A stretch of DNA of 64,000 nucleotides from Spinellus fusiger (lineage: Eukaryota; Mucoromycota; Mucoromycetes; Mucorales; Phycomycetaceae). The stretch covers positions 682,001 through 746,000 of the forward strand of contig JALLLS010000006.1 in the NCBI GenBank assembly GCA_025094145.1. The letters are read 5' to 3'. Positions 10,871 through 57,196 of this stretch are shown piece after piece. The first letter of the stretch is position 1. Every line of letters begins with the position of its first letter. The notes under the pieces are model-generated. The model made no database searches. It worked only from the letters and a program-made list of their open reading frames with translations, and was not told where the DNA came from. Made by a program: the position numbers and the translations under genes.

Positions 10871-12205
10871 TAATAATAATAATGATAATAATAATAATAA
10901 TAATATTACTATCACTATCTTATGAGTTATTTAATAAAAAGGAAATACAGTCGACTCACAAGACTTTTCATGTATATATTCTTTTCTTCCATCGACATTT
11001 TTTTTTATTTTATTTTTTTTATAATAAATTAAAACTCGGGCTTCATTATAGACAAAACAAAACAAAAAACATCTTTTTAAAACATGATACTGTTTTTAGT
11101 ATACATAAAACAAACCATTGGTAGTATTATAATTCAATAAATAAATGGCATTGTTACACCTAAAGGCTAACTGGGAGGGTCTTCATTAGTATTAAGATCA
11201 AAGACAGAAGTAATTGATTCTAATGATTTGAAGGTACTTACTCTTATCATCTGGATGCCAACATTAGTGAATACACATTCGTTATGACCTTGATAAAAAT
11301 AAATACGAGTCTATTAAAGTATATCTTTCCAGGTATTTTACAAAGCACAAAGTAGATAGTCTATGACTCCTTTTGTATTAATGTATTGTGTTTGGTATAA
11401 GGTAGATTCGTCGTCTCCATTCACTCGTCAGTAACTACACACCTAAAGATTTTTGGGATATAAAAGTAAATATACGGACAATAAAATAATACTATTACTC
11501 TAATTGGCTAATGTGTTTTAAAAAGGTATTTTCGCTATCTAAATGAACTATTTCAAACTCTGTCTGCCTATCCTAGCAATAGCTACACTATCTTCATAAA
11601 GTATTGGTGCATCTTTGGGGAAATTATAGTATAGAAATGTAGTATGATTCAAAAAAGACTTACATGTATCTTAGTTTAGTGCAGTGATAACTACACCGGA
11701 TTCTTTTTTTTTTTGATGTTTTGGTGGATTGGTTAATACTAACTAGATGTTTGTCTGATTGTTGATGATTAATAAAGATTAAAAGCTTCATTCTAAGAAA
11801 TGGGATTAAGCTAGTGACATTCTGGTTTTTCCACAGCAGGAGTAACTTTATATGAATAATAGTTATGCAACACTTGGGTAACTCTGGCTCTTTCCTCGAG
11901 GTATCTTGCAAACGTTTCACAATTGACTGTTGAAGATGTATGTCCTGATAGAGATAACTCGGCTTCTATTCAATACCAGTGATTGAGCTTTTTACTGCTA
12001 CAATCTTTAGAGCAGGTTCCATGAAGAAAAGAAAATAAAGACGAGTTGACCTTTTTTCTTTTTATACTATTTCTGTTTTATAACTGGTTTCCACATGCCA
12101 TTGATTCAATCCGTGATTTGAAAACCAAGAAGTTGTGCTAAAGCATAAAACTTGTATATCTATCAATGGAAACTGTGAATTCCATCGGTTTTCTATGCAT
12201 ATATA
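9372..12205. other. AT-rich intergenic, no supported gene
   Basis: After the SAS10 stop I see its AT-rich 3' region, then nearly 2.8 kb with no family-level similarity and only short open frames. The one conspicuous structure is the AAT/ATG trinucleotide array, listed separately. Confidence 0.5.
10735..10906. repeat. AAT-type trinucleotide microsatellite (~170 bp)
   Basis: A near-uninterrupted run of AAT units interspersed with GAT units at its 5' end and again near the 3' end. It is open in several frames (poly-Asn, poly-Ile, poly-Leu), so any coding prediction across it is an artefact of periodicity. Confidence 0.95.
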
Positions 12206-12663
12206 CAGTCCCATACAATAAATGAGTTGACAGAATTCTTTTTTTTTTCTTTTGAAAAATAAAGGTACATCTATCAGTCAAAGATGTTCATAATAAAAAG
12301 TTCATGGAATAACACGGGATTTGGAATAGTTTTTCTAACTGATTGTCTACATTTTTATTATAAAGATATTGCTCAGTGCTTTGTAACAGAGCCTTTGTTT
12401 TTATACAATAGGACATTCTTGCACACTGTGCTCTTTGGGAGGTCGAAAGTGTCAGCAATCTCTTGATAAGTAGCATGTCTTTTCCATTGTCCTATGATTT
12501 GATCTCTAATAAACATATTATGCTCTCTTCTTTTGATGGGACTATCTTTATGTTCTTGTCTAAGAGTTGGTTGATTTTCATTGCTTGGTGTCATTGTTTG
12601 AATAGATTATAAAATAGAAATAGAAAATTGATTTGCTGTCCACTCATTTATTGCCTGGGACTG
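12206..12663. mobile_element. Internally deleted Tc1/mariner-type element
   Basis: Inverted repeats of about 28 bp bound this segment. The left end begins CAGTCCCATACAATAAATGA; the right end, read in reverse complement, begins CAGTCCCAGGCAATAAATGA. Both continue to GACAG with few mismatches. TA dinucleotides flank both ends (12204-12205 and 12664-12665), the Tc1/mariner target-site hallmark. At 458 bp it is far shorter than an intact element (1.3-2 kb) and keeps only the transposase N-terminus on the minus strand. Confidence 0.75.
12373..12594 (-). pseudogene. Tc1-like transposase, N-terminal HTH fragment
   Basis: A 73-residue frame contains a helix-turn-helix of the Tc1/Tc3 transposase type: RDQIIGQWKRHATYQEIAD, then FDLPKSTVCKNVLLYKNKGS. 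The catalytic DDE domain is missing, so it cannot encode a transposase. It lies within the TIR-bounded element 12206-12663. Confidence 0.75.
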
Positions 12664-13323
12664 TATACCTCACCAGAATAAGAATATTTTTTATTCTTTG
12701 TTCTTGTTATTATCTTGTTATTTCCTGCACTGCACATACAACTTAACACCCAAATACTCATCAAGATGAGCATAACTGAGCAAGTTAATGTGCCATTATT
12801 AACAAAGAAAAACAATAAAAGGAAGTTTTAGGCACTACCAAAGACTGTTCTGAAAGTAAAAAGGTAAGCAGTGTCTTTATCTGGGCTTGAGCTCAATGTA
12901 TTCCACAAGGCACTCATTGCATTATTTATAAATAAAGACTCCATTCAAGTCAGTCCCAGGTGGTCTTCTACAAGGTCAATAATGTCTAGGGTATACTCCT
13001 GAGCATGGTTTTCTATCTCCCAAGGATAAAGCACAAAGCCTTTAGGGTCTAGATTCTATTGTTATGAGGGAATGCACTTGGGCAGTAGCTATAGTACATA
13101 GTATAGTATTAGCTATACTATTGCAATAAACAATTCTATTCATCAACACTATATTCCATTGATAATATAATCTGATAGTGAGGTATACTACAAAAGGAAA
13201 TAATAATCTAGATACTTGCAAACCTTTGATTTTAAACACAGTTCCATAGAAGGGCAAAATTCGGGATAGACGTAAAAGGAAGGAGATATCACCGCTTAAA
13301 GGCCAGAAAAATCCTTGGGTATG
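12664..13323. mobile_element. Partial copy of the Fanzor-bearing element family
   Basis: Homologous by eye to the right arm of the copy at 21160-23740 and, in reverse, to the left arm of the copy at 54191-57196. Shared blocks include GATGAGCATAACTGAGCAAG, GTCTTTATCTGGGCTTGAG, GATACTTGCAAACC and the terminal AAGGAGATATCACCGCTTAA. It ends near 13323 beside TA. The Fanzor-coding end is absent. It starts exactly where the Tc1 fragment 12206-12663 ends. Confidence 0.7.
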
Positions 13324-14183: not shown

Positions 14184-14971
14184 CACTGTTTTCAGAAAAT
14201 ATTGGCGCATTCTTGGGAAAAAATATTGTTGCCTTAATAAATAAAAATTGCTTATAATTGTGAAAAACAGTGTCGCATAAAGTAGTAAATTGGTATAGTA
14301 TAAAGAAGTAATAAATTGGTGTAGTATAAAGATTTAAACTGTCATATTTTGAGCAACTGCGTGTTCATTGATGAAACAGATTCCTATATCAATATGAAGC
14401 GATTATTTGCTTGGTCAAAGATTGGAACTAGGGCTGTAGTAAAAAATAATAATCCCAAAGACTAGAGCAAGAACTATAGTGATCTTGGGCGTGGTATCCT
14501 CTCATGGCCTTGTCAACATAAAGGTCAGACAACCACGGGCAATGACTCTATTCACACCAATAGTAATATCAAAAGGTTCATTGAAATTCTTGGCTATAAA
14601 TGCATCCATCTTCCTCTATATTCAGAGTTGAATTCAATTGAACAACTCTAGTATGCTTGTAAAAGTAGGTTGAAAAGAGAACTACTTTTGGAGGAGAAAT
14701 TATTGTCTTTAAGAGTTGCAGATGCATCCAACTAAATCCTAATCAATGACCTCAAAGGTTTCTGTGGATATTCTGAAAACTAGTTTGATGATTATTTGAA
14801 CAAAAAGCCTATTTAATAATAAAGTCATATTGTCGCATTTGGCGTATTCAAATGATCTGCTAATTTACTACTTCTTTATGCGACTGTTTTTCATAATTAT
14901 GAGCCAAAGAATTCTTGTTAGTGCGCCAATACTTTTCCCCAAAAATGCGCCAATATTTTCTGAAAACAGTG
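14184..14971. mobile_element. Tc1/mariner-type element with long TIRs (788 bp)
   Basis: The ends are CACTGTTTTCAGAAAATATT and its inverted copy, flanked by TA. The inverted similarity extends inwards for about 120 bp (GAAAAACAGT and GCATAAAG blocks on both sides) and 8 bp outwards past the TA, so the target was either palindromic or part of a longer repeat. The interior retains a transposase C-terminal remnant on the + strand. Confidence 0.8.
14500..14790 (+). pseudogene. Tc1-like transposase C-terminal remnant
   Basis: Around 14600-14652 the + strand reads HLPLYSELNSIEQL, then a stop where Trp or Phe would be expected, then a lysine-rich helix (SRLKRE). This matches the Tc1/mariner LPPYSPxLNPIExxW motif just before the third catalytic residue. 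Stops and frame changes show it is dead. Confidence 0.7.
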
Positions 14972-20345: not shown

Positions 20346-20505
20346 CACACCAGGATATTTTCTGGCCTTTAAGCGGTAATATCTCCTTCCTTTTACGTAA
20401 AAGAAAAGACGCACCTTCTATGGAATTGTGTTTAAAATCAAAAGGTTTGCAAGTATCCAAATTATTATTTTTTAAGGATAACTCAATAATAAATTGTAAA
20501 GTGAC
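20346..20505. mobile_element. Solo terminal segment of the Fanzor-bearing element
   Basis: Starts CACACCAGGATATTTTCTGG beside TA (20344-20345), then carries CTTTAAGCGGTAATATCTCC and GGTTTGCAAGTATCC. These match the left arm of the copy at 54191 and the inverted right arm of the copy at 21160-23740. Similarity fades near 20505. It is a detached end with no coding part. Confidence 0.75.
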
Positions 20506-20639
20506 CCGACAAAAGTAATGGAATTTTTTCAAATTCCAGGATATTTTTATACCAAAAAAATAGACACTATCTTTTTTTTTCATGACACTTCTTTTCTTAT
20601 AATATCTGACTTATCCAACACTATGAATATCTTCACCAA

Positions 20640-20985
20640 GACCCTTGAGATGTATGGGAAATAGACCAGCTTTGAAACTCACTCAGACATCTTTCATGAG
20701 GGACTGAGCCTGAGATCTACTCAGATCGAAGCATCTCGCATGTTCAACGTGCCTGATTCTACTGTGAGAGACATAGCAAGGCACCACAAGAAAACCAACC
20801 AAGTTGAACCCTTACCCAGGAGTGACAGAAAAATAAAATTCGATAAAAGAGTCTTCCAGTGGTTGAGAAGAACAGTAATGAACAACTCCCACCAGACCAA
20901 AATAGCCATCATGGTAGGCATGGGGCGGAGATGCCAGGCAGTGATAGATGCCAAGGGTGGCCACAGTGGTTACTAGGCAACCTTA
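20640..20985 (+). pseudogene. Tc1-like transposase N-terminal fragment
   Basis: The + strand reads LRSTQIEASRMFNVPDSTVR, then DIARHHKKTNQVEPLPRSDR and KIKFDKRVFQWLRRTV. This is the paired HTH arrangement of Tc1 transposases (HTH, a GRPR-like linker here PRSDR, then a second HTH). The frame then degenerates and no DDE domain follows. It sits between the solo end at 20346 and the Fanzor-family copy at 21160. Confidence 0.7.
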
Positions 20986-21289
20986 CAATGAAACTAATGT
21001 TATTTATTTCAATAACTATTCTATGTATCTATTGAAACTTTTACGTTTCTAGCTAATACATTCATGAAGTTATAACACTATTAAGAAAAGTATGAATCTA
21101 AAGAAAGAAATCTGCATTTGAAAAAAAAAATCCATTACTCTTTGATGGTCACTTTACTACACGCCAGGAGGTCTTTAGGATATAAAAGGAAATAGTCGAA
21201 ATACAATTGTTTAGAAATGACAAATCGATTTGAAAAGGAGCAAAAAAAGTGAAATATATTCATGTTAGTTCTTAAATAAAGATTATTAT

Positions 21290-21356
21290 GTAAATTTACC
21301 TGTAAATATCTAAATCCCGAAGGAAACCACTTTCGATGTGGCGATATATAATATGA
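21290..21356 (-). ncRNA. Candidate guide-RNA scaffold of the Fanzor element
   Basis: On the minus strand, just 3' of the Fanzor frame, are two adjacent potential hairpins: CCAC-ATCGAAA-GTGG (21327-21341) and TCC-TTCG-GGA (21315-21324, a UUCG-type tetraloop). About 65 nt around them match the same position in copy 2 (57000-57056) with one difference, whereas flanking sequence has diverged much more. A guide-RNA role is inferred from position and structure. The alternative is a coding C-terminus (frame ISPHRKWFPSGFRYLQV). Confidence 0.4.
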
Positions 21357-21384
21357 ATGCATCAAAGAATATCTATTCTTATGT

Positions 21385-21870
21385 GACTGTATAGATACCC
21401 TTTGATGCATTCACATCTCTGTTCTAAACAATTCCGCAACTTTGGCAAGCGCGGATATTGTTGAAATTCACTAATACCTCAGTGAGGATATTTGTGTTGC
21501 AAGTATGGCAGATCTTGAGAACAAAAATAAGAATAACTGTTAGAAGAGCTTTTTATATTGGGTAAGAGGTCAATCATGCTTACCCTCGATGTAAAGAACT
21601 CATCGACATCAACCAGAAGAAAATCACCATCTTTCTGTCTCTTTTTCAGTGATTGATATAATATTTTTGTCAAACCAACACGATGGCCTTTAAATTTGAC
21701 AGCATTCTTTCCTTTCATTCCTGTGCCATAGGCAATGACTGGCAGCTTGGTAGGATCATGCTCCAATCCTTTTAGGTGCCAATAACCCTTTTCAATAATA
21801 GAATAGTAGTAAGAATAATTAGTTCGAGATGTATTAATGTAATCTAGGTGTGTGTCGTATTACTCTTGCA
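21385..21870 (-). pseudogene. Fanzor (TnpB-like nuclease) C-terminal region, copy 1
   Basis: Reading on the minus strand: LPVIAYGTGMKGKNAVKFKG, then GDFLLVDVDEFFTSR, an intron (21514-21583, GTAAGC...CTCAAG), then ICHTCNTN, RACQSCGIV and NRDVNAS. These are the late RuvC segments and the interposed CxxC/CxxC zinc ribbon of TnpB/Fanzor proteins: DEF-x-TSR with the Fanzor-type glutamate, and the final RuvC Asp in NRDVNA. A stop replaces the Trp expected before NRD, and the frame ends soon after. The N-terminal half (RuvC-I) was not found. RNA-guided DNA nuclease function applies to the family, not to this dead copy. Confidence 0.75.
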
Positions 21871-23740
21871 CTGGCACCTTCTTGCCTTTGTAATGGATTC
21901 ACTGGGTTTACTATAGTAAAAAAATATACAATAGAAACTGACCAACATGTAAGACATAATAAACATACACAAACACTCACCAGATCACAACTGTTGGTTT
22001 ATATGCCAGACAAAGACAAACATGTTAAAGAGGGTAGAAGTTATGGAGAAAAACAGACAGTGTGGTTGGCAGGTATTTATATCCGAACAGAAGAGAACAA
22101 AACGAAACTTCACAAGTCATTTGCTTAATCAGAACTACCAAAGTAATGCAGACTACAACAACATTTTAGAAAGAAAAAGAATTGCTTAAAGAACAGTTGC
22201 CTAGTTACCAGTTGTATTCAAATCGTGTGTTGTGTCCCTGTTTATGTACCCTCTTTGATTTCCCTAGATCAGCCTTTGTATCCAAACCTATATTTCTTCA
22301 TCCCTGCTAGAGACCGAACTACTATCAATTCATCTATCTAGTGGTCCTGTTGATAACCTTAGTACTCTTTATTACAGAATAAAGGATACATTTTACAAAG
22401 TTACATAGTATAAATCTTGAGGCTACTTTTATATATTTTTAAGCCATAAGGATCAAAGCTATACGATAATAACATCTCTGTAAATTCAGAGATGGATCTC
22501 ATTCTCTTGTTCTATGTATGTTTTAAGGGAAGAGATAAACTTTATTTACAATAAAATCACTTTATTGAATTCTATGGACTTGAAATACAGGACCAAGATT
22601 ATACACACTGTAGGATAGGACAGTTACCCTTCCCAGTCTGATTGGATGTTCTATGAGGACCATAGCTATTAATTGAGAATAGCAAAATAGTCAATTTCAT
22701 AGTCAAATTCATAGTAAAAGAAATGCCAAACTAATATAAAAAGTGTAATTGTCTACATTCTTAATAAAATAGACTTTAATCCAAACAGCTTCCTAGAGTA
22801 TAAACAAGATAATCTTTAGGAACTTGAGTAGCTGACTGTTTCTTATTCTCGACTTTTTTTCTTTGGTTGGCTAATGTGTTTGAAAAGAACCTTCTCACTG
22901 TCTGTCTGTCTTAGCATTGACTATGAACTGTGTAATTAAACACTATAAAGTTGGATAAAAGGAAGAAGTAGACCTGACATTACAACTCAATCACTGTATT
23001 GATTGTTTAACATGTGCTATCCTTAAGCCTACAGTATAACACTCAAGTACTCGTCAAGATGAGCATAACTGAGCAAGGTAATGTGTCATTATTAACAAAG
23101 AGAAACAATAGAAGGAGGTGATATACACTACCAAGGACTATTCTAGTGATAAAAAGGTAAGCAGTGTCTTTATCTGGGCTTGAGTTCAATGTATTCCATA
23201 AGACATAGTATTGACTCTTCTTCTAATAGATGATATTGGCTTATTATTCTTAAGACAAGTATTAAGTACAAGGTAAGCATACTATCTCTCTTATTGAATT
23301 ATTACTAATACACTCTTCTGTTATTAGATAAGTAAAGACTCTTTCTCAAGTCAGTCCAAGGTGGTCTTCTTCCTTCTATACTGTCTAAGGTGTCTAGGGT
23401 GTCTAGGGTATACTCCTGAGCATAGTTATCTATCTCTCAAGAATAAATCACAAGGCTTTTAGGGTGTATATTCTGTTGCTATGAAGGAATACACCTAGAA
23501 CAGCAGTAGCTATAGTAATAGTATAGTATTAGCTACAGTATTATTAGTTATATTATTACAATAAACAATATATTTTACTGATAATACAATTTGATATTGA
23601 GGTATCCACAAAAGGAAACAATTATTTAGATACTTGCAAACCTTTTGATTTTAAACACAATTCCATAGAAGGTGCGTCTTTTCTTTTACGTAAAAAGAAG
23701 GAGATATCACCGCTTAAAGGTCAGAAAATATCCTGGTGTG

Positions 23741-23984: not shown

Positions 23985-25600
23985 AGATTCCGAAGTAGCA
24001 TTGTAGGGGACCCTATTTTCAGTCTCAAGTGGTGATGAGAAAGTCCGCATGGGTTGTTGTCTTTGGCTTCAACCAAAGGAAGTCCGCATGGTTCAAAGAG
24101 TAAACAAAGTCTGATCTTTATTTACTCTTTTGCACTTGTTTTATAATTTTCTAATTGATACTACATAATAATTATAATAAAAAAGCCCTCTCTTGCTAAA
24201 GTATCATCTCTTAGATACATACCTTGTTAACTAACTCTTCTTCTATTGTGTGGTCCCTTTTAGGTAGTCTGTGTTTCTATTGACGGGGATGATGGATATC
24301 TCTATCTATGGCAAGTGATTATCCGCTTGGGTTTATGCTGGAGATACTCTGCTGGAAGATCCATGGCATCTAATTTATCTGTGAATGCTTTATCACTACT
24401 GTGAAAACTAAAGCCTTCTCCAAAAGGAATTTTGTCCATAATTTAATCATTGATCTGAGGTACTATTGCTACTGATAACCCACAACAGTAAATATAGAAG
24501 TATTTGTACTTTAAATAACTCACACACTATTTATAAGATTATATGGTCAATTTTCCATATATCTTTATAGTATCAGATCATTCAAGTAACCTAAAGATAT
24601 AACAAAAGCAGTTGAGATACATCAAGAAAATTCAGATACAACAGCTCTACTTCAGACATACTAATTATGTTTTATTAACAAACTCTTTATTATCCAATAT
24701 TTAATTCAATAATCTGTATCATCAGATATTTAAATGCATTTGGTAGATATATGACATGGATTAAGAATAACAATAATGCTTCTCTGTATAACATCAGAGT
24801 GTTTTGGTGTAAGTATAGCTTTTGTAGTTACTTGGTCTCTTGTGTATGATGGCAGTGTGTCATTTTCAGGATGTAACATGCTACCATGGATTGTATCTGT
24901 TAAATTATTCATTTCATGGTGTGTTAGCATCATACCATCAGGAACTCTGATCAATTCTGAGTTTCCTACTGTCTGAACGCTTCTATTGCCAACATCAAGG
25001 AGGTGTCTTGAGAACTGCTGTAAGGTGTTTGCAAGTATACTGTTTTCGGGTGATATGGCTTGCTCAATATGTGTATTCACAACTAACTTAAATATTTTTA
25101 TGAAGCTCCAAGTGGAAGATCGGTTTATACACTGATCAACACTATCCATCATACTTCCTTTGTGCACTACTGGAAGCACTTGGCAGATATCACCACCAAA
25201 TAAAGTAACTTTGTCACCAAAAGGTACGAATCCTAATGTAGGCTGTTGAACTTTCATGATATCTCTGAAAGATCTATTCACTGCATCAAATACACTACGA
25301 CTTAGCATAGATACTTTATTCCAGACTATTGATTTTGTAACCGTTTTTTTACAGACTGCTAACTGTTAGTCTCTCGTTTTTAGTGTATAAGATCTAAGGC
25401 AACAACATCTTGTATACTGCTTAGTATGTCTCTTCTCAGTGTGTCTTGTTTATGCCATATATAGTTTAGGTAACCTTGCTCAACGTTAGCATATACTCTA
25501 TACTGATAAAAGAGCTTTCCAAATAAATGCAAGTGGTTGGAGTAATTTCTGTACATCAATCTGAAGTAGTAGTGTTTCACTGTGCTTATCTTGAAATTTT
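23985..25600 (-). pseudogene. Helitron Rep/Pif1-helicase remnant
   Basis: In minus-strand order: 25380-25580 carries a Rep-region motif (LFGKLFYQYRVYANVEQGYL, then QDTLRRDILSS). 25340-24730 carries Pif1-like helicase motifs (VSMLSRSVFDAVNRSFRDI, TLFGGDICQVLPVVHKGS, AILTPKHSDV). About 24480-24380 gives FHSSDKAFTDKLDAMDLPAE, and about 24060-24000 gives LKIGSPTMLLRNLDPK. The order matches a Helitron protein. The long Rep-helicase linker is deleted, the Walker B acid pair reads NK rather than DE (WNKVSML), and stops and insertions interrupt it. It is a rolling-circle transposon fossil. Confidence 0.75.
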
Positions 25601-48810: not shown

Positions 48811-51447
48811 ATGGCGTCCTCTTCTCCTTCTGTACCTACTGTACCCACAGCAGCACCCGCCGCCAAAAACAACCGCCGCCACCGTAAACCAAAGCAGCCT
48901 CTCGAACCTAGTCCCAGTCACGACTCTCCTGACTCAGTAGCAAGTCTGTCTTCAGGGCCTCGTTCTTCCCACCGCCACCCACCTCGCGAGAAGAAAGACA
49001 AAAAGACGACACGAGAGAAGAAGACAGAAGAAAAGACGACAGAAGAAAAGACGACAGAAGAAAAGACGACAGAAGAGGAGGAGAAGGAGGAGGAATTGTG
49101 CTATATATGTACAGAGCCTATTGTTACTTATGCTGTATCTCCGTGTGATCACCGCACTTGTCACTTATGTGCTGTTCGCTTAAGATCCCTCTACAAAACA
49201 AGACACTGTGCTTATTGCAAGGTAGCTTCTATAAGATAGAAAGAGAGAAAGAAAGAGCCTCCTCCAACAGGCCACAGGTGCTTACCAAGTCCCTCCTTTC
49301 TCATTACCCTTCTCCTCTTGTATTGTTAGGCAGAACAAAAGACAGTAATTTTTACAAAGGACCCTCAGAAACCATTCGATAGCTATACACGACACGACAC
49401 ACCATTCTATCACCGTAAACTCGGTGGTCGTTTCGAAGAAGAACAGACCTACCAAGACACCCTTCTGATTCTTCAATTCAACTGTCCAGAATCCACCTGC
49501 CAAGTGGCCTGTGAGAATGGATGGGGTGAATTAAAGAAGCATGTGAAAAAGGCCCATGATCTTAATCTATGGTAAGTCCTCTGATAGATAGCTTCCACTC
49601 CAGGGAAACTTATTATTATTATTACAAAGTGATCTATGCACACGGCATAAGAAGATCTTTGCCCATGAACACACACTCTACACCTACACCCAGCTTCAGA
49701 AACACTGTAAACAAGGGGACAAGGGGGTGGCTAAAGACGACGATACTGGATTCAAAGGACATCCTGAATGTCAGTTTTGTAGAATCAACTTTTATGGCAA
49801 CGATGAATTGTATGAACATTGTCGTGATAAGCATGAAGAATGTCATTTGTGTGTAAGAAGGGGAATTCGACATGAGTATTTTGTAAACTACGAAAAGATG
49901 GTAAATAAATACAAATACAAATATAAACACAAATATAAACACAAATATAAAGAAGAAAATGTCAATGGCATGACACCAAGAAAAGGGCGGGTATTTCTTT
50001 ATTATTCATGCAACCCTCTTTCTATAGGAAACACATTTCAAAAATGAACATTTCCTGTGCTTATACCGTGAATGTCTCGAGAAGAAGTTCGTTGTCTTTG
50101 AAGGAGACATTGATCTTAAAGCCCACGAGGTAGGATTCTTTCCATCATTCTATCTATAGCTTCCTAGAGTGCTCTACATCCAATAGAAGACTAATAAAGA
50201 CAGGTGGAAGAACACGGTGCATCAGTGGCACATCTTCCACGTGCAAAACAAGCAGAGGCTAGACGTGTGGAAGTGGAGTTTGACTATAACAGTACGTCTC
50301 GTCACCACCACCACCAAGAGAATAGACCCAGAGAACGAGTCCAGCGCCACCAGCCAACACGGCAGGAAGAACGCCTTCCACTGTCATCGAGTGATTTCCC
50401 CAGTATAAACAACAGGGGCCAATCTTCTTCCTCTTCTTCTTTAGGAGAAAACACACAGCCAAATCAAAGCAAAAGACATCTTTATCATAGATCCCATGGG
50501 TTGAGTCCACTGGGAAGAGAGAACAATTGGCCTAGTCTAGGAGAAAGCAGCCAGGTTGTCTATTTGCCTGTAGCAGCAGTAGATCCACCTGCACCCACCT
50601 ATGCTGTGTCTCGTCAGGCAGCCTTCCTTGACAAAGTAGGCACCATGATGAAGAGTGTAGAAAAGGTGGTGCAGTTGAGACAGATGGCAGCTTCTTATAG
50701 GGACTCCATGATCAGTGCACGTAGTTTTGTGGATGGAGTGTGTGATCTATGTAATAATCCTGAACACAGTGCTGCTATTTTCCAGAGTGATGATTTTATA
50801 GAGGAGGAGGAAAAGAGATCAGAAGCAGTGCGTGTATGGAGACAATTACAAAAGGTAGACTATTGATTGATTGACTTGGCATTGTTCTGTAGTATAGCTA
50901 GTATCACTGGACTCAGTGGAAGACTGTGTGGATCTTCTTTGTAACTGACTCTTCTGTCTAGTCAACCTCAAAGACATCTGAGGAGGCTGTGGGCCACACA
51001 ACTTCTCCGCGTGTCAAGGTCATCAAATCAGTCAATACACGCACAGGAGGCAACCGCCCTACATCGCGTATAAATGTATGGGATAGAGTAGCCCATGCAG
51101 CAGAAGACGCAGAATCTTCTTCTTCATTGACACCTCTTGTCTCCCTTCCCAATGGCCGGTCCAAGACAGCATGGTCTACCCAGCAGCAGACATTCTCCAC
51201 CTACACTGGAACAGCAGAAAGGGAATCCACCCTCTCTGCACCTCAGCAGCACTTCCCCTCTCTGCCAGCTGCACCTCCCAGGTATGGGGCAGGTCTACGT
51301 CAGGCAACACGACAGAGCAGTGCATGGACGTCAGGCATAAATGATACCCATGCAAGTGAATTCTCCGTGCCAGAGAATGTAGAGACCCCTACAGACAAGA
51401 AAAGGAAAGGAAAAAAGAAGCAGGTGCTTTTCCGTGTGGGCCTATAA
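48811..51447 (+). CDS. HEL2: HEL2/ZNF598, ribosome-collision E3 ubiquitin ligase
   Basis: Six exons: 48811-49221, 49330-49571, 49630-49900, 50028-50129, 50204-50854 and 50962-51447, giving 720 aa. After a disordered Lys/Glu repeat (EKTTEEKTTE), a RING finger (CYICTEP, CDHRTCHLC, CAYCK) ends exon 1. C2H2-type fingers follow (CPESTCQVAC with KKHVKKAHDL; CDLCTRHKKIF; CQFCRINFYGNDELYEHC; CHLCVRRG; FKNEHFLCLYREC). The C-terminus has FPSINN/WPSLGE/FPSLPAA motifs and the family-typical basic end (KKRKGKKKQVLFRVGL). Hel2/ZNF598 ubiquitinates 40S proteins on stalled, collided ribosomes to start quality control. It is divergent from NOT1, another mRNA-surveillance gene. Confidence 0.95.
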
Positions 51448-51469
51448 AATGCTTACTGTCAATCCAAGC

Positions 51470-51783
51470 CAATTCAATTCAATCCAATACAATACAATAC
51501 AATACAATACAATACAATACAATACAATACAATACAATACAATACAATACAGTACAATACAGTACAATACAGTACAATACAATACAATACAATACAATAC
51601 AATACAATACAATACAATTCAATCCAATCCAATCCAATTCAATCCAATCCAATCCAATCCAATCCAATCCAATCCAATCCAATCCAATCCAATCCAATCC
51701 AATCCAATCCAATCCAATCCAATCCAATCCAATCCAATCCAATCCAATCCAATCCAATCCAATCCAATCCAATCCAATCCAAT
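51470..51783. repeat. Biphasic pentanucleotide array (AATAC then AATCC)
   Basis: A ~310 bp array made of two homogeneous blocks. About 51483-51616 is (CAATA)n with rare CAGTA variants. About 51618-51783 is (CAATC)n with two early TC variants. It lies between the HEL2 stop and the YEATS gene 3' end, so it is probably within or next to both 3' UTRs. Open frames over it (Ile-Gln-Tyr-Asn or Leu-Asp-Trp-Ile-Gly periodic peptides) are artefacts. Confidence 0.97.
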
Positions 51784-51977
51784 AGAGCCAAAAGGACAAT
51801 AAACACTCGTTGCATATATTAAAAAGAAAAAGAAAAAGGCATGTTTATAGATGTATGTATGCAATTGTATACAGTGTGTACACTTGTATCATAAGTAGAA
51901 ATGCTCCTTAGCAAGTACAGAAGATGAACGGTTCATAAGATTCAAAAGATCACTTTCTTTTTCTCCTTTCTTTAGTC

Positions 51978-54190: not shown

Positions 54191-56395
54191 CACACCAGGA
54201 GATTTTTCTGGTCTTTAAGCGGTGATATCTCCTTCCTTTTTAGACAGAAAATATATTACCTTTTATGGAACAATGATTAAAATCAAAGGTTTGCAAGTAT
54301 CCAATTTATTATTTCCTTCTGTAGAATACCTCACTATCAAATTGTATTATCAATAGAATATAATGTTTATGAATAGAATTGTTTATTATAATACTATAGC
54401 TAATACTATAGTATGTACTATAGCTACTGCCCAAGTGCATTCCCTCATAATAATAGAATCTATACCCTAAAGGACTTGTGATTTATCCTTGGGAGATAGA
54501 TAACTATGCTCAGGAGTATACCCTAGACACCCTAGACAGTATAGAAGACTACCTGAGACTGACTTGAAAGGAGTCTTTACTTGCCTAATAACAATACAGT
54601 GAGTGTCTTGTACATTAGAATAAGCTATAGCCCAGATAAAGACATTGCTTACCTTTTTATCACTAGAATAGTCCTTGGTAGTGTCTACAACTTTCTTTTA
54701 TTGTTTTTCTTTGTTAATAATAGCACAATACCTTGCTCAGTTATGCTTATCTTGACGATTACTTGAGTGTTAAGTTGTATGTGTAGTGTGAGGAATAACA
54801 AAAGGAAGGGATTATCAAAAATAATAATACTTCATCTATTATTCTGGTGAGGTATACACTATAGCCTCTACTCATAAAATCTATAAAGTACTATTGTTAA
54901 TACCAATTACAATAACATAGTTACTGAGGTGATTATAAATATTGAGTCAATGAATGGCCATACTGTTCTTAACACAAGTAAGCTTGGTTCTATTTTATGG
55001 ACAATGATCACTAGAGTTAATTTTATAAGTTCTATAATAAATCTCTCTCAAGCAGCGTCATACTGCAAATACTGTGAGTTTATGGATAACACATTATGTT
55101 AAACAATAAATTCAGTGATTGAGTTGTAATGTCAGGTTTACTTCTTCCTTTTATCCAACTTTATAGTGTTTAATTGCACAGTCCATAGTCAATGCTAAAA
55201 CAGACAGACAGTGAAAAGGTTCTTTTCAAACACATTAGCCAACAAAACAAATGGTGTGATTTCATTGTTCGTATATTTCTTTATATATCCCAGAAATATT
55301 CTGTTGATATAAGACAAGAGACACACAGGACCTCTTAAGGCTGGTTACTCATACGGAGATTGACAGAAAAGAGAAGGGTGGGGCTGACAGAAGGCAAACT
55401 AATGGTTGTAATAATAATAGTACTCTATGGGAATACAGAAAGAAAACAGGTCGAGAACAAGAAACAGTCAGCTGCTCAAGTCCTTAATGCCTATCTTGTT
55501 TATACTCTAAGAAGCTGTTTGGATCAAAGTCTATTTTATTAAAGATGTAGACAACTAAACATTTATATTAGTTTATCATTTCTTCTTTGACTATGAATTT
55601 TTCTAATTTGCTATTCTCAAGCAATAGCTATGGTTTTCATAGAACATTCAAGCAGATTGGGAAGGGTAACTGTTCTGTCCTATAGTGTATATAATTCTGG
55701 TTTTGTATTTCAAGGCCATAGAATTCCAGAAAGTGATTTTATTGTAAAAGAAGAAGAAAAAAGGTTTCTCTCTTCCCTTGAGATATACATAGGACAAGAG
55801 GAGGGAATCTATCTATGAATTTACTGAGATGTTATTATCGTATGACTTTGATCCTTATAGCTTGAAATACGTATATGAGTAGACCCAAATTCATGCTATA
55901 TAATTTTGTAAAATATATCCTTTATTCTGTAATAAAGGGCACTGCGGTTATCAACAGGACCACTGGAGAGATGAATCTGTAGTTGTTTGGTCTCTAGAAG
56001 GGACAAAGAAATAGAGGTTTGGATACAAAGGCTGGTCTAGGGAAATCAAAGAGGGTACATGAACAGGGACACAACATACGATTTGAATACAACTGGTAAC
56101 TAGGCAACTGTTCTTTAAGCAATTCTTTTTCTTTCTAAAATGTTGTTGTAGTCTGCATTACTTTGGTGGTTCTGATTAAGCAAATGACTTGTGAAATTTC
56201 GTTTTGTTTTCTTCTGCTTGAATATTAATACCTGCCAAACACACTGTCTGTTGTTCTTCATAACTTCTACCCTCTTTAACTTGTTTGCCTTTGTCTGGCA
56301 TATAAACCAAAAGTTGTGATCTGGTGAGTGTATGTTTATTATGCCTGACATGTTAGTCAGTTTCTATTGTATGTTCTTTTACTATAATAAGCCCA

Positions 56396-57000
56396 GTGAA
56401 TCCGTTACAAAGGCAAAGGCAAGAAGAAGGTGCCAGTGCAAGGGTAATACGACACACACATAGAGAGTACATTAATACATCTCGAACTAATTACTTTTAC
56501 TATTATTTTATTATTGAAAAGGGGTATTGGCACCTAAAAGGATTAGAGTATGATCCTACCAAATTACCAGTTGTTGCTTATGGCACAGGAATGAAGGGAA
56601 AAGATACTATCAAATTTAAAGGTCATGAAAATGGTTCGACAAGAATTTTATATCAATCATTGAAAAAAGAGACAAAAGGGCGGAGATCTTCTTCTGGTTG
56701 ATGTCGATGAGTTCCTTACATCGAGAGTAAACATGATTGACCTGTCAAATAATATGAAAAAGCTCTTCTAGAAGTTACTCTTTTATTTTTGTTCTCAAGA
56801 TCTGCCACACTTATAACACAAATAACCTCACCAAAGTATTCATGAATTTCAACAGTATCCACGCTTGCCAAGGTTATGGAATTGTTTGGAACAGGAATAT
56901 GAATGCATCAGAGAATACCTATAAGATTGCAGAAGAGGCTTTCAATGGTCGCCACAGACCAGTTCCACTGTGTCGAGAAGAATGGATATTTGTATTCATA
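56396..57000 (+). pseudogene. Fanzor (TnpB-like nuclease) C-terminal region, copy 2
   Basis: Reads YDPTKLPVVAYGTGMKGK, then LVDVDEFLTSR after a one-base insertion near 56670-56680, then an intron at the same place as copy 1 (56727-56799, GTAAAC...CTCAAG). Next come ICHTYNTN, HACQGYGIVWNRNMNAS, YKIAEEAFNGRHRPVPLCRE. Late RuvC and zinc-ribbon order is retained and the RP-x-x-x-CR tail is family-typical. Key residues are lost: one Cys in each CxxC is Tyr, and the last RuvC Asp (NRD) is Asn. An upstream piece (NPLQRQRQEEGASAR) joins through an intron ending near 56520. The copy is dead. Confidence 0.78.
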
Positions 57001-57056
57001 TTATATATCGCCACATCGAAAGTGGTTTCCTTCGGGATTCAGATATTTACAGGTAA
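57000..57056 (+). ncRNA. Candidate guide-RNA scaffold of the Fanzor element
   Basis: Two adjacent potential hairpins: CCAC-ATCGAAA-GTGG (57011-57025) and TCC-TTCG-GGA (57028-57037). They sit directly after the Fanzor C-terminus and about 140 bp from the element end. The segment differs from copy 1 by one base across ~65 nt. The position matches where TnpB/Fanzor guide RNAs are encoded (3' end of the gene to the element end). The RNA role is inferred; no transcript evidence is available. Confidence 0.4.
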
Positions 57057-57196
57057 ATTATAATAATAATCTTTATTTGTTTAAAAACTAACATGAATAC
57101 ATAATTTATTTTTGCTCCTTTTCAAATCGATGTGTCATTTCTTAAACAATTATATTTCGACTATTTTCTTTTATATCCTAAAGATCTCCTGGTGTG

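Follow-up and report, generated by a model that had tools for sequence, protein, structure and literature searches.

Fanzors are DNA-cutting enzymes related to the ancestors of CRISPR, and why eukaryotic transposons carry them is an open question. Fanzor1 genes have been described in the Tc1/mariner elements PUl-1 and PUl-4 (Pythium ultimum), PGv-1 and HMa-1 (Bao and Jurka, 2013, PMC3627910). In the sections of that report available to us, PUl-4 codes for Fanzor only, has the ends of confirmed mariners and is flanked by TA duplications, and the Fanzor1 elements of Rhizopus, Phycomyces and Mucor are of MuDR type, with terminal inverted repeats and 9-bp duplications. For Spu-1 of Spizellomyces punctatus, the available text gives 42 loci with a full or partial gene and 134 ghosts, and states that no transposase was found between the inverted repeats (Saito et al., 2023, PMC10432273). 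The SfAV element, as far as its description is accessible, is present in two copies in an insect virus, where inverted repeat and target duplication form part of the Fanzor1 guide RNA (PMC10711439). A literature search on Fanzor in Mucoromycota located no report and one on Fanzor MITEs returned other subjects, although such families may still have been published.

The window, i.e. the whole stretch of 64,000 nucleotides of Spinellus fusiger DNA that was analyzed, contains three broken copies of an element and one leftover end. They belong to a real, large Fanzor-carrying transposon family, and the copies read here are broken. With a probability of about 0.8, these are deletion derivatives ("ghosts") of a Fanzor1-carrying, TA-target, Tc1/mariner-like inverted-repeat element that would be moved in trans. 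According to this explanation, a TA-target inverted-repeat Fanzor1 element would have multiplied in the genome, for the most part in the form of non-autonomous copies with internal deletions. The gene for Fanzor1, an RNA-guided nuclease, would be present in fuller copies, with the C-terminus adjoining the right end, and a transposase, presumably of the Tc1/mariner type, would act in trans on the common ends (CACACCAGGAGAT) to cut and paste all copies at TA. Two of the window derivatives retain only the C-terminal Fanzor exons and an R1 end, one retains an N-terminal frame, part of the RuvC-I exon and an R2 end, and the last is a stub.

Direct reading of the ends confirmed that the two long copies exist, are inverted with respect to each other and are flanked by TA, as reported in an earlier note on this DNA. 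Copy 1 is a complete L..R1 element of 3,006 bp (54191-57196, + strand) with TA on both sides, its left end (L) at 54191-54230 (+) and its right end (R1) at 57161-57196 (-). Copy 2 (21160-23740, -) is a complete element of 2,581 bp, inverted relative to copy 1 and likewise with TA on both sides. What had been taken for a partial copy at 12664-13323 turned out to be the left third of another complete element of 1,886 bp (11438-13323, -), which has TA on both sides and ends in a third end type, R2. The solo left end is real; it spans 20346-20498 (+), matches the copy 2 left end at 91% identity and is cut off after 153 bp, at the start of a decayed Tc1-type element with unrelated ends (AAGTGACC..GGTCACTT) that lies outside the family (20499-21155, +, limits by eye). 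This Tc1-type element carries a transposase N-terminus at 20665-20973 with an HTH_SB match (0.0016) below the cut-off of that model. Genome-wide, at least 123 stretches match copy 1 (40 of 1,829 candidates scored). The window further contains a PIF1-like helicase fragment at 24730-25365 (-; PF05970, 1.1e-23), which possibly derives from a Helitron-type element, and a long simple repeat at 51360-51785 (+) with an open frame in which IQSNPIQ recurs.

The two ends of one element have their first ~13 bases in common (CACACCAGGAGAT) and then diverge into the types L (..TTTTTCTGGCCTTTAAGCGG), R1 (..CTTTAGGATATAAAAGGAAATAG) and R2 (..TTTTTGGGATATATAAGG, at 11438-13323), R1 and R2 being alike mainly at the tip. 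Tc1/mariner-type terminal inverted repeats are present, but they are short, and the shared termini of the earlier note hold for these ~13 bases, beyond which L and R1 are not the same sequence. The 20-mer given there is the R1 end; it is exact only at 57177-57196 and has three mismatches at the 54191 end and two at the 21160 end, making three matches in the window versus 0.01 expected. In the 38.08-Mb genome, the same 20-mer with up to three mismatches, at which it also catches L and R2 ends, gave 585+560 = 1,145 matches, compared with 3+1 = 4 for the reversed-pattern control. An L 30-mer with up to one mismatch matched 205+223 places (reversed control 0+0), and an R2 36-mer matched 133+122 places with no control match.

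When ends were paired without regard to their flanks, all 26 resulting rows, two of which are the window copies appearing again as loci, were TA/TA. A set of 27 bounded elements was assembled from 24 selected by their ends alone and three added by hand, namely the window element 11438-13323, the element at C35 and that at locus L069, whose ends were sought with TA required. All 27 have TA on both sides, in agreement with the TA-flanked, inverted-ended architecture originally proposed; a duplication longer than TA was seen at the TA in 0/27, and beyond the TA a 4-base match occurred in one of the 27 (0.04 expected) and none was longer. No empty site was found among 29 flank joins searched against the sequence in hand, so that the reading of TA as a duplication draws on pattern and precedent. 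Locus L005 (1501-2941) has an R1 end (~98 bp) and an R2 end (~100 bp) with a 1,240-bp L..R2 element placed at a TA between them, which looks like an insertion of one family member into another. An alignment of 200-nt R1 ends displays a near-invariant, splice-donor-like CAG|GTAAAT ~140 bp before the R1 tip.

Both long copies carry Fanzor/TnpB C-terminal coding sequence at one end, as had been proposed. In this class, exon A (GYWHLKG..TSR) begins ~680 bp before the R1 tip and is followed by a GT..AG intron and by exon B with the zinc ribbon and RuvC-III. The intron measures 70-81 bp in all 61 rows (59 loci, some of which overlap, and the two window copies) and 70-73 bp in the window copies themselves. 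Both window Fanzor regions are broken. In copy 1, exon A (56522-56726, +, GYWHLKG..DEFLTSR) has frame damage before KKRQK, and after the 73-bp GT..AG intron (56727-56799, +), exon B and the open frame that follows it (56800-57063, +) read CHTY, CQGY and NRNMN, i.e. two of the four zinc cysteines are replaced by tyrosine and the RuvC-III aspartate by asparagine. In copy 2, exon A is open (21584-21787, -) and exon B (21382-21513, -, end approximate) keeps all four zinc cysteines, with an in-frame stop just before NRDVN.

The HMM check suggested for these exons bears out the assignment. The C4 zinc ribbon of a spliced relative (L049) reaches PF07282 at 4.4e-13, and copy 1 itself scores 2.6e-5 (24.8 bits), just under the cut-off of 26.3. 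At least 150 genomic matches to PF07282 were obtained, 147 of them over the curated cut-off (150 of 457 candidates scored), and exon A likewise has at least 150 matches, the weakest at 1.2e-31 (150 of 619 candidates scored). Among 30 loci selected by PF07282, an R1 end lies downstream in 28 (up to nine mismatches of 36), as compared with none in shuffled loci; its distance from the zinc-ribbon match is 314-344 bp in 27 loci and 287 bp in one, and TA stands beyond the R1 end in 26 of the 30. Against PDB, the C-terminal exons matched TnpB-like and Cas12-like chains and left the Fanzor1 chains unmatched, and a protein search of a large database with the C-terminal part returned 48 candidates, none at E ≤ 0.001. 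Since the PDB Fanzor1 chains were unmatched, the two halves of the protein could come from different Fanzors.

The R2 class carries N-terminal material. In the element 11438-13323, a reading frame with a helix-turn-helix (MTPSNENQ.., 12376-12594, -) matches HTH_23 (4.9e-4) and HTH_SB (8.6e-4), both under their cut-offs. Its structural model has three helices with a mean pLDDT of 82-90 in blocks over residues 21 to 60; a Foldseek search with this model gave no match below 0.001, and the frame has no match to the Parasitella Fanzor1 chain at E up to 10. At least 150 matches to the frame exist genome-wide (150 of 374 candidates scored). Further along the element lies the second part of a RuvC-I exon (11814-11969, -, AELSLSGHTSSTVN..), which is similar to L003:2587-2937 and whose place in the genome is C154:693862-693966 (91%). 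The full RuvC-I exon of L003 (KCVLVDPGRRDVLYC.., DPG motif) matches the Fanzor1 proteins of Parasitella (2.8e-21) and Spizellomyces (4.8e-11) in PDB, while Pfam and NCBIfam returned nothing telling for it. It lies ~420 bp from an R2 end, and the stretch between exon and R2 end recurs in all 40 candidates scored (of 906), the window element included. By its likeness to the L003 exon, the third element is judged to carry part of a Fanzor1. A second Fanzor1 group is 45-49% identical at RuvC-I and has open frames of up to 663 aa; its members at C110:854754, C2:337199, C121:237315 and C171:124452, which are 46-49% identical to L003 and have open frames of 491-663 aa, possibly represent intact Fanzors of another element.

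The two N-terminal pieces share a strand and keep their order. The 150 listed helix-turn-helix places were compared with 52 RuvC-I and 81 remnant places; neither pairing list includes 17 of the 150 listed RuvC-I rows, which are split or partial matches. In eight pairs, a RuvC-I exon follows the helix-turn-helix frame within 4 kb on one strand, five of them at 1,890-1,909 bp, with one pair each in the opposite-strand and reverse-order controls. A shortened RuvC-I remnant follows the frame in 31 pairs, at distances of 514-1,418 bp (controls 0 and 0). At C110, a RuvC-I exon (205184-205483) lies in a 479-aa open frame and an exact L end stands at 208104; the distance from the exact L end to the start of the helix-turn-helix frame is ~718 bp there and 729 bp in the window. 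The spacing of 1,890-1,909 bp would accommodate the REC and WED part of a Fanzor1 and would leave hardly any room for a Tc1 transposase as well. REC and WED comprise ~480 residues in the Parasitella protein, as estimated from the position in the PDB chain with a tag length that we assume for it. No listed DDE_3 match (150 of 1,544 scored) falls between the frame and the exon. It is conceivable, if somewhat unlikely, that this Fanzor1 has the helix-turn-helix frame as its N-terminal domain, i.e. a transposase-like DNA-binding domain fused to an RNA-guided nuclease.

No copy among those examined has both Fanzor halves together: RuvC-I was seen in L003 and RuvC-III in R1-type copies. Among the matches listed (150 of 619 C-terminal and 150 of 185 RuvC-I), C-terminal and RuvC-I places were never same-strand neighbors within 6 kb, and three such pairs within 6 kb lie on opposite strands. 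The earlier note had put forward a check for a full-length copy in which the same inverted repeat encloses every RuvC acid and both CxxC pairs; none was found among the copies examined, and by coordinates the best candidate for one is at C110 (RuvC-I exon at 205184-205483, exact L end at 208104). Copies that keep the ends and lack the zinc-ribbon frame, which the same note had named as counting against its reading, do exist (L005:1599-2838 and window 11438-13323); as the family has internal-deletion derivatives, however, such frame-less copies do not refute it.

These observations leave appreciable room, at somewhat more than one part in three, for a chimaera, an L..R2 element to which a second segment with R1 at its end was added. 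The C-terminal exons would then have come from another Fanzor element and would have been acquired as the old R2 end ceased to work and a right end farther out came into use. Copy 1 indeed holds a fossil R2-type right end at 55269-55308 (+), which has 10 mismatches of 40 and has lost its outer tip. Such an R2-like stretch stands upstream of the Fanzor exons in six of 15 distinct long copies with 10-12 mismatches of 40, where the best of 20 shuffles for each of the six reached 16-18 mismatches; in the other nine it is unrecognizable above chance. The limited likeness of R1 and R2, the TnpB-like and Cas12-like rather than Fanzor1 matches of the C-terminal exons and the missing same-strand neighborhood point in the same direction. 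On the other hand, the constant distance between zinc ribbon and R1 resembles what is seen at the 3' end of an ordinary Fanzor, short matches in PDB say little about lineage, and the neighbor comparison covers only the matches listed. The preferred explanation, in contrast, would derive both classes from one ancestor with both halves; since no examined copy has both and no transposase of its own was found, this single ancestral element is a reconstruction.

Of the proposal that this is a mariner-type Fanzor carrier, the Fanzor coding sequence, the TA flanks and the inverted ends stand, while a transposase with these ends was not found. None belonging to the family turned up in the loci examined or in the DDE_3 search (150 of 1,544 candidates scored), which agrees with the earlier observation that none is visible inside the elements and leads us to infer movement in trans; a DDE_1 search gave no match, and as its controls were silent too, it is uninformative. 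We accordingly file the family as mariner-like only. That the Tc1-type transposases inside or beside family elements (L069, L070 and L074) are the family's own is improbable. At L069, the two family ends do enclose a broken DDE_3 gene, the spacing of which is DD34E by eye count. However, relatives of this transposase in L070 and L074-L077 have different inverted repeats of their own, and the transposases appear to occupy differing positions in the family element (L069 ~171/262, L070 ~116 and L074 ~62), as nested insertions would; for these reasons, L069 was rejected as an autonomous partner. At C35, a DDE_3 family of 440 aa is located beyond the neighboring Fanzor element and has its own different end, and the window Tc1 fragment 20499-21155 was dismissed as a partner because of its other ends. 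A decayed DDE_3-type transposase fragment in the window (14352-14891, +) is related to the L069-L078 and C35 families. At least four L..R2 elements of ~4.1 kb were paired by eye from the coordinates of the first 100 places listed for each type of end (C1:524040-528148, C30:13573-17727, C41:44715-48793 and C111:302849-306947), and this class, known by coordinates alone, is the best candidate place for a transposase.

Parts required for nuclease activity are missing from the Fanzor pieces in the window. We give very little credence to the idea that the C-terminal fragment is under selection as a working short protein. The dN/dS ratio is 0.44 for both exons (bootstrap 0.31-0.62), 0.37 for exon A and 0.56 for exon B, but wrong or non-coding control frames range over 0.44-1.33, and as they reach the same 0.44, selection on the exons is not demonstrated. 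Both exons are open in nine of 51 distinct copies, a share that is probably too high, as the copy set was partly chosen by protein score. Stops occur in many copies, and tyrosine replaces a zinc cysteine in 27 of the 51. Mapped on the tree, this loss takes 11 changes, compared with a mean of 17.2 and a minimum of 11 after shuffling, and it was mostly repeated rather than inherited. The rate of C-to-T change is 0.155 at CpG, about twice that at CpA (0.073) and CpT (0.081), and 0.042 at CpC. With regard to RNA structure, 32 right ends yielded 25 pairs, one of which has two-sided change, and five single right-end folds did not outperform those of shuffled sequences (z 0.15 to 1.81). Among solved Fanzor1 proteins, the closest comes from Parasitella, a fungus related to Mucor, Rhizopus and Phycomyces, which would favor a MuDR-type element. 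With duplications longer than TA, 9 bp included, in 0/27 elements, such an element, as the available text describes for the Fanzor1 of these three genera (PMC3627910), is barely credible here.

The presence of hundreds of copies in separate N-terminal-only and C-terminal-only classes suggests that these parts are dispensable for spreading, and an intact Fanzor may once have helped the family. By providing a natural set of ends and fuller copies, the family allows one to ask whether an intact Fanzor raises copy number. The part worth following is the possible helix-turn-helix Fanzor. If real, such a protein could attach to the ends of its own element and thereby couple guided cutting to transposition; a helix-turn-helix beside or in a Fanzor, should the two form one protein, would be a concrete link between the nuclease and the element ends.

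Fanzor-only mariner elements and Fanzor ghosts are already in print, going by the portions of these reports at hand, and the family described here is a large further example. Like PUl-1, PUl-4, PGv-1 and HMa-1, it is TA-flanked, has inverted repeats and carries Fanzor1, but unlike these elements, as they appear in the available sections of PMC3627910, it has no transposase-bearing partner that we found, and it is a large family whose deletion classes keep different protein parts. It resembles the SfAV element in being non-autonomous and having inverted repeats, and the accessible description has the latter coding for Fanzor1 alone (PMC10711439). The closest solved relative of its RuvC-I exon is the Fanzor1 of Parasitella parasitica (PDB 9cf0; PMC11423790, seen in part; E 2.8e-21), in whose chain the helix-turn-helix frame has no match. 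With Spu-1 it shares a fungal Fanzor1 element with inverted repeats and many gene-less copies that keep their ends; unlike Spu-1, it gives no RNA structure signal at the right end, and whereas the Spu ghosts, in the text available, are without a Fanzor frame (PMC10432273), many of the derivatives described here keep part of it.
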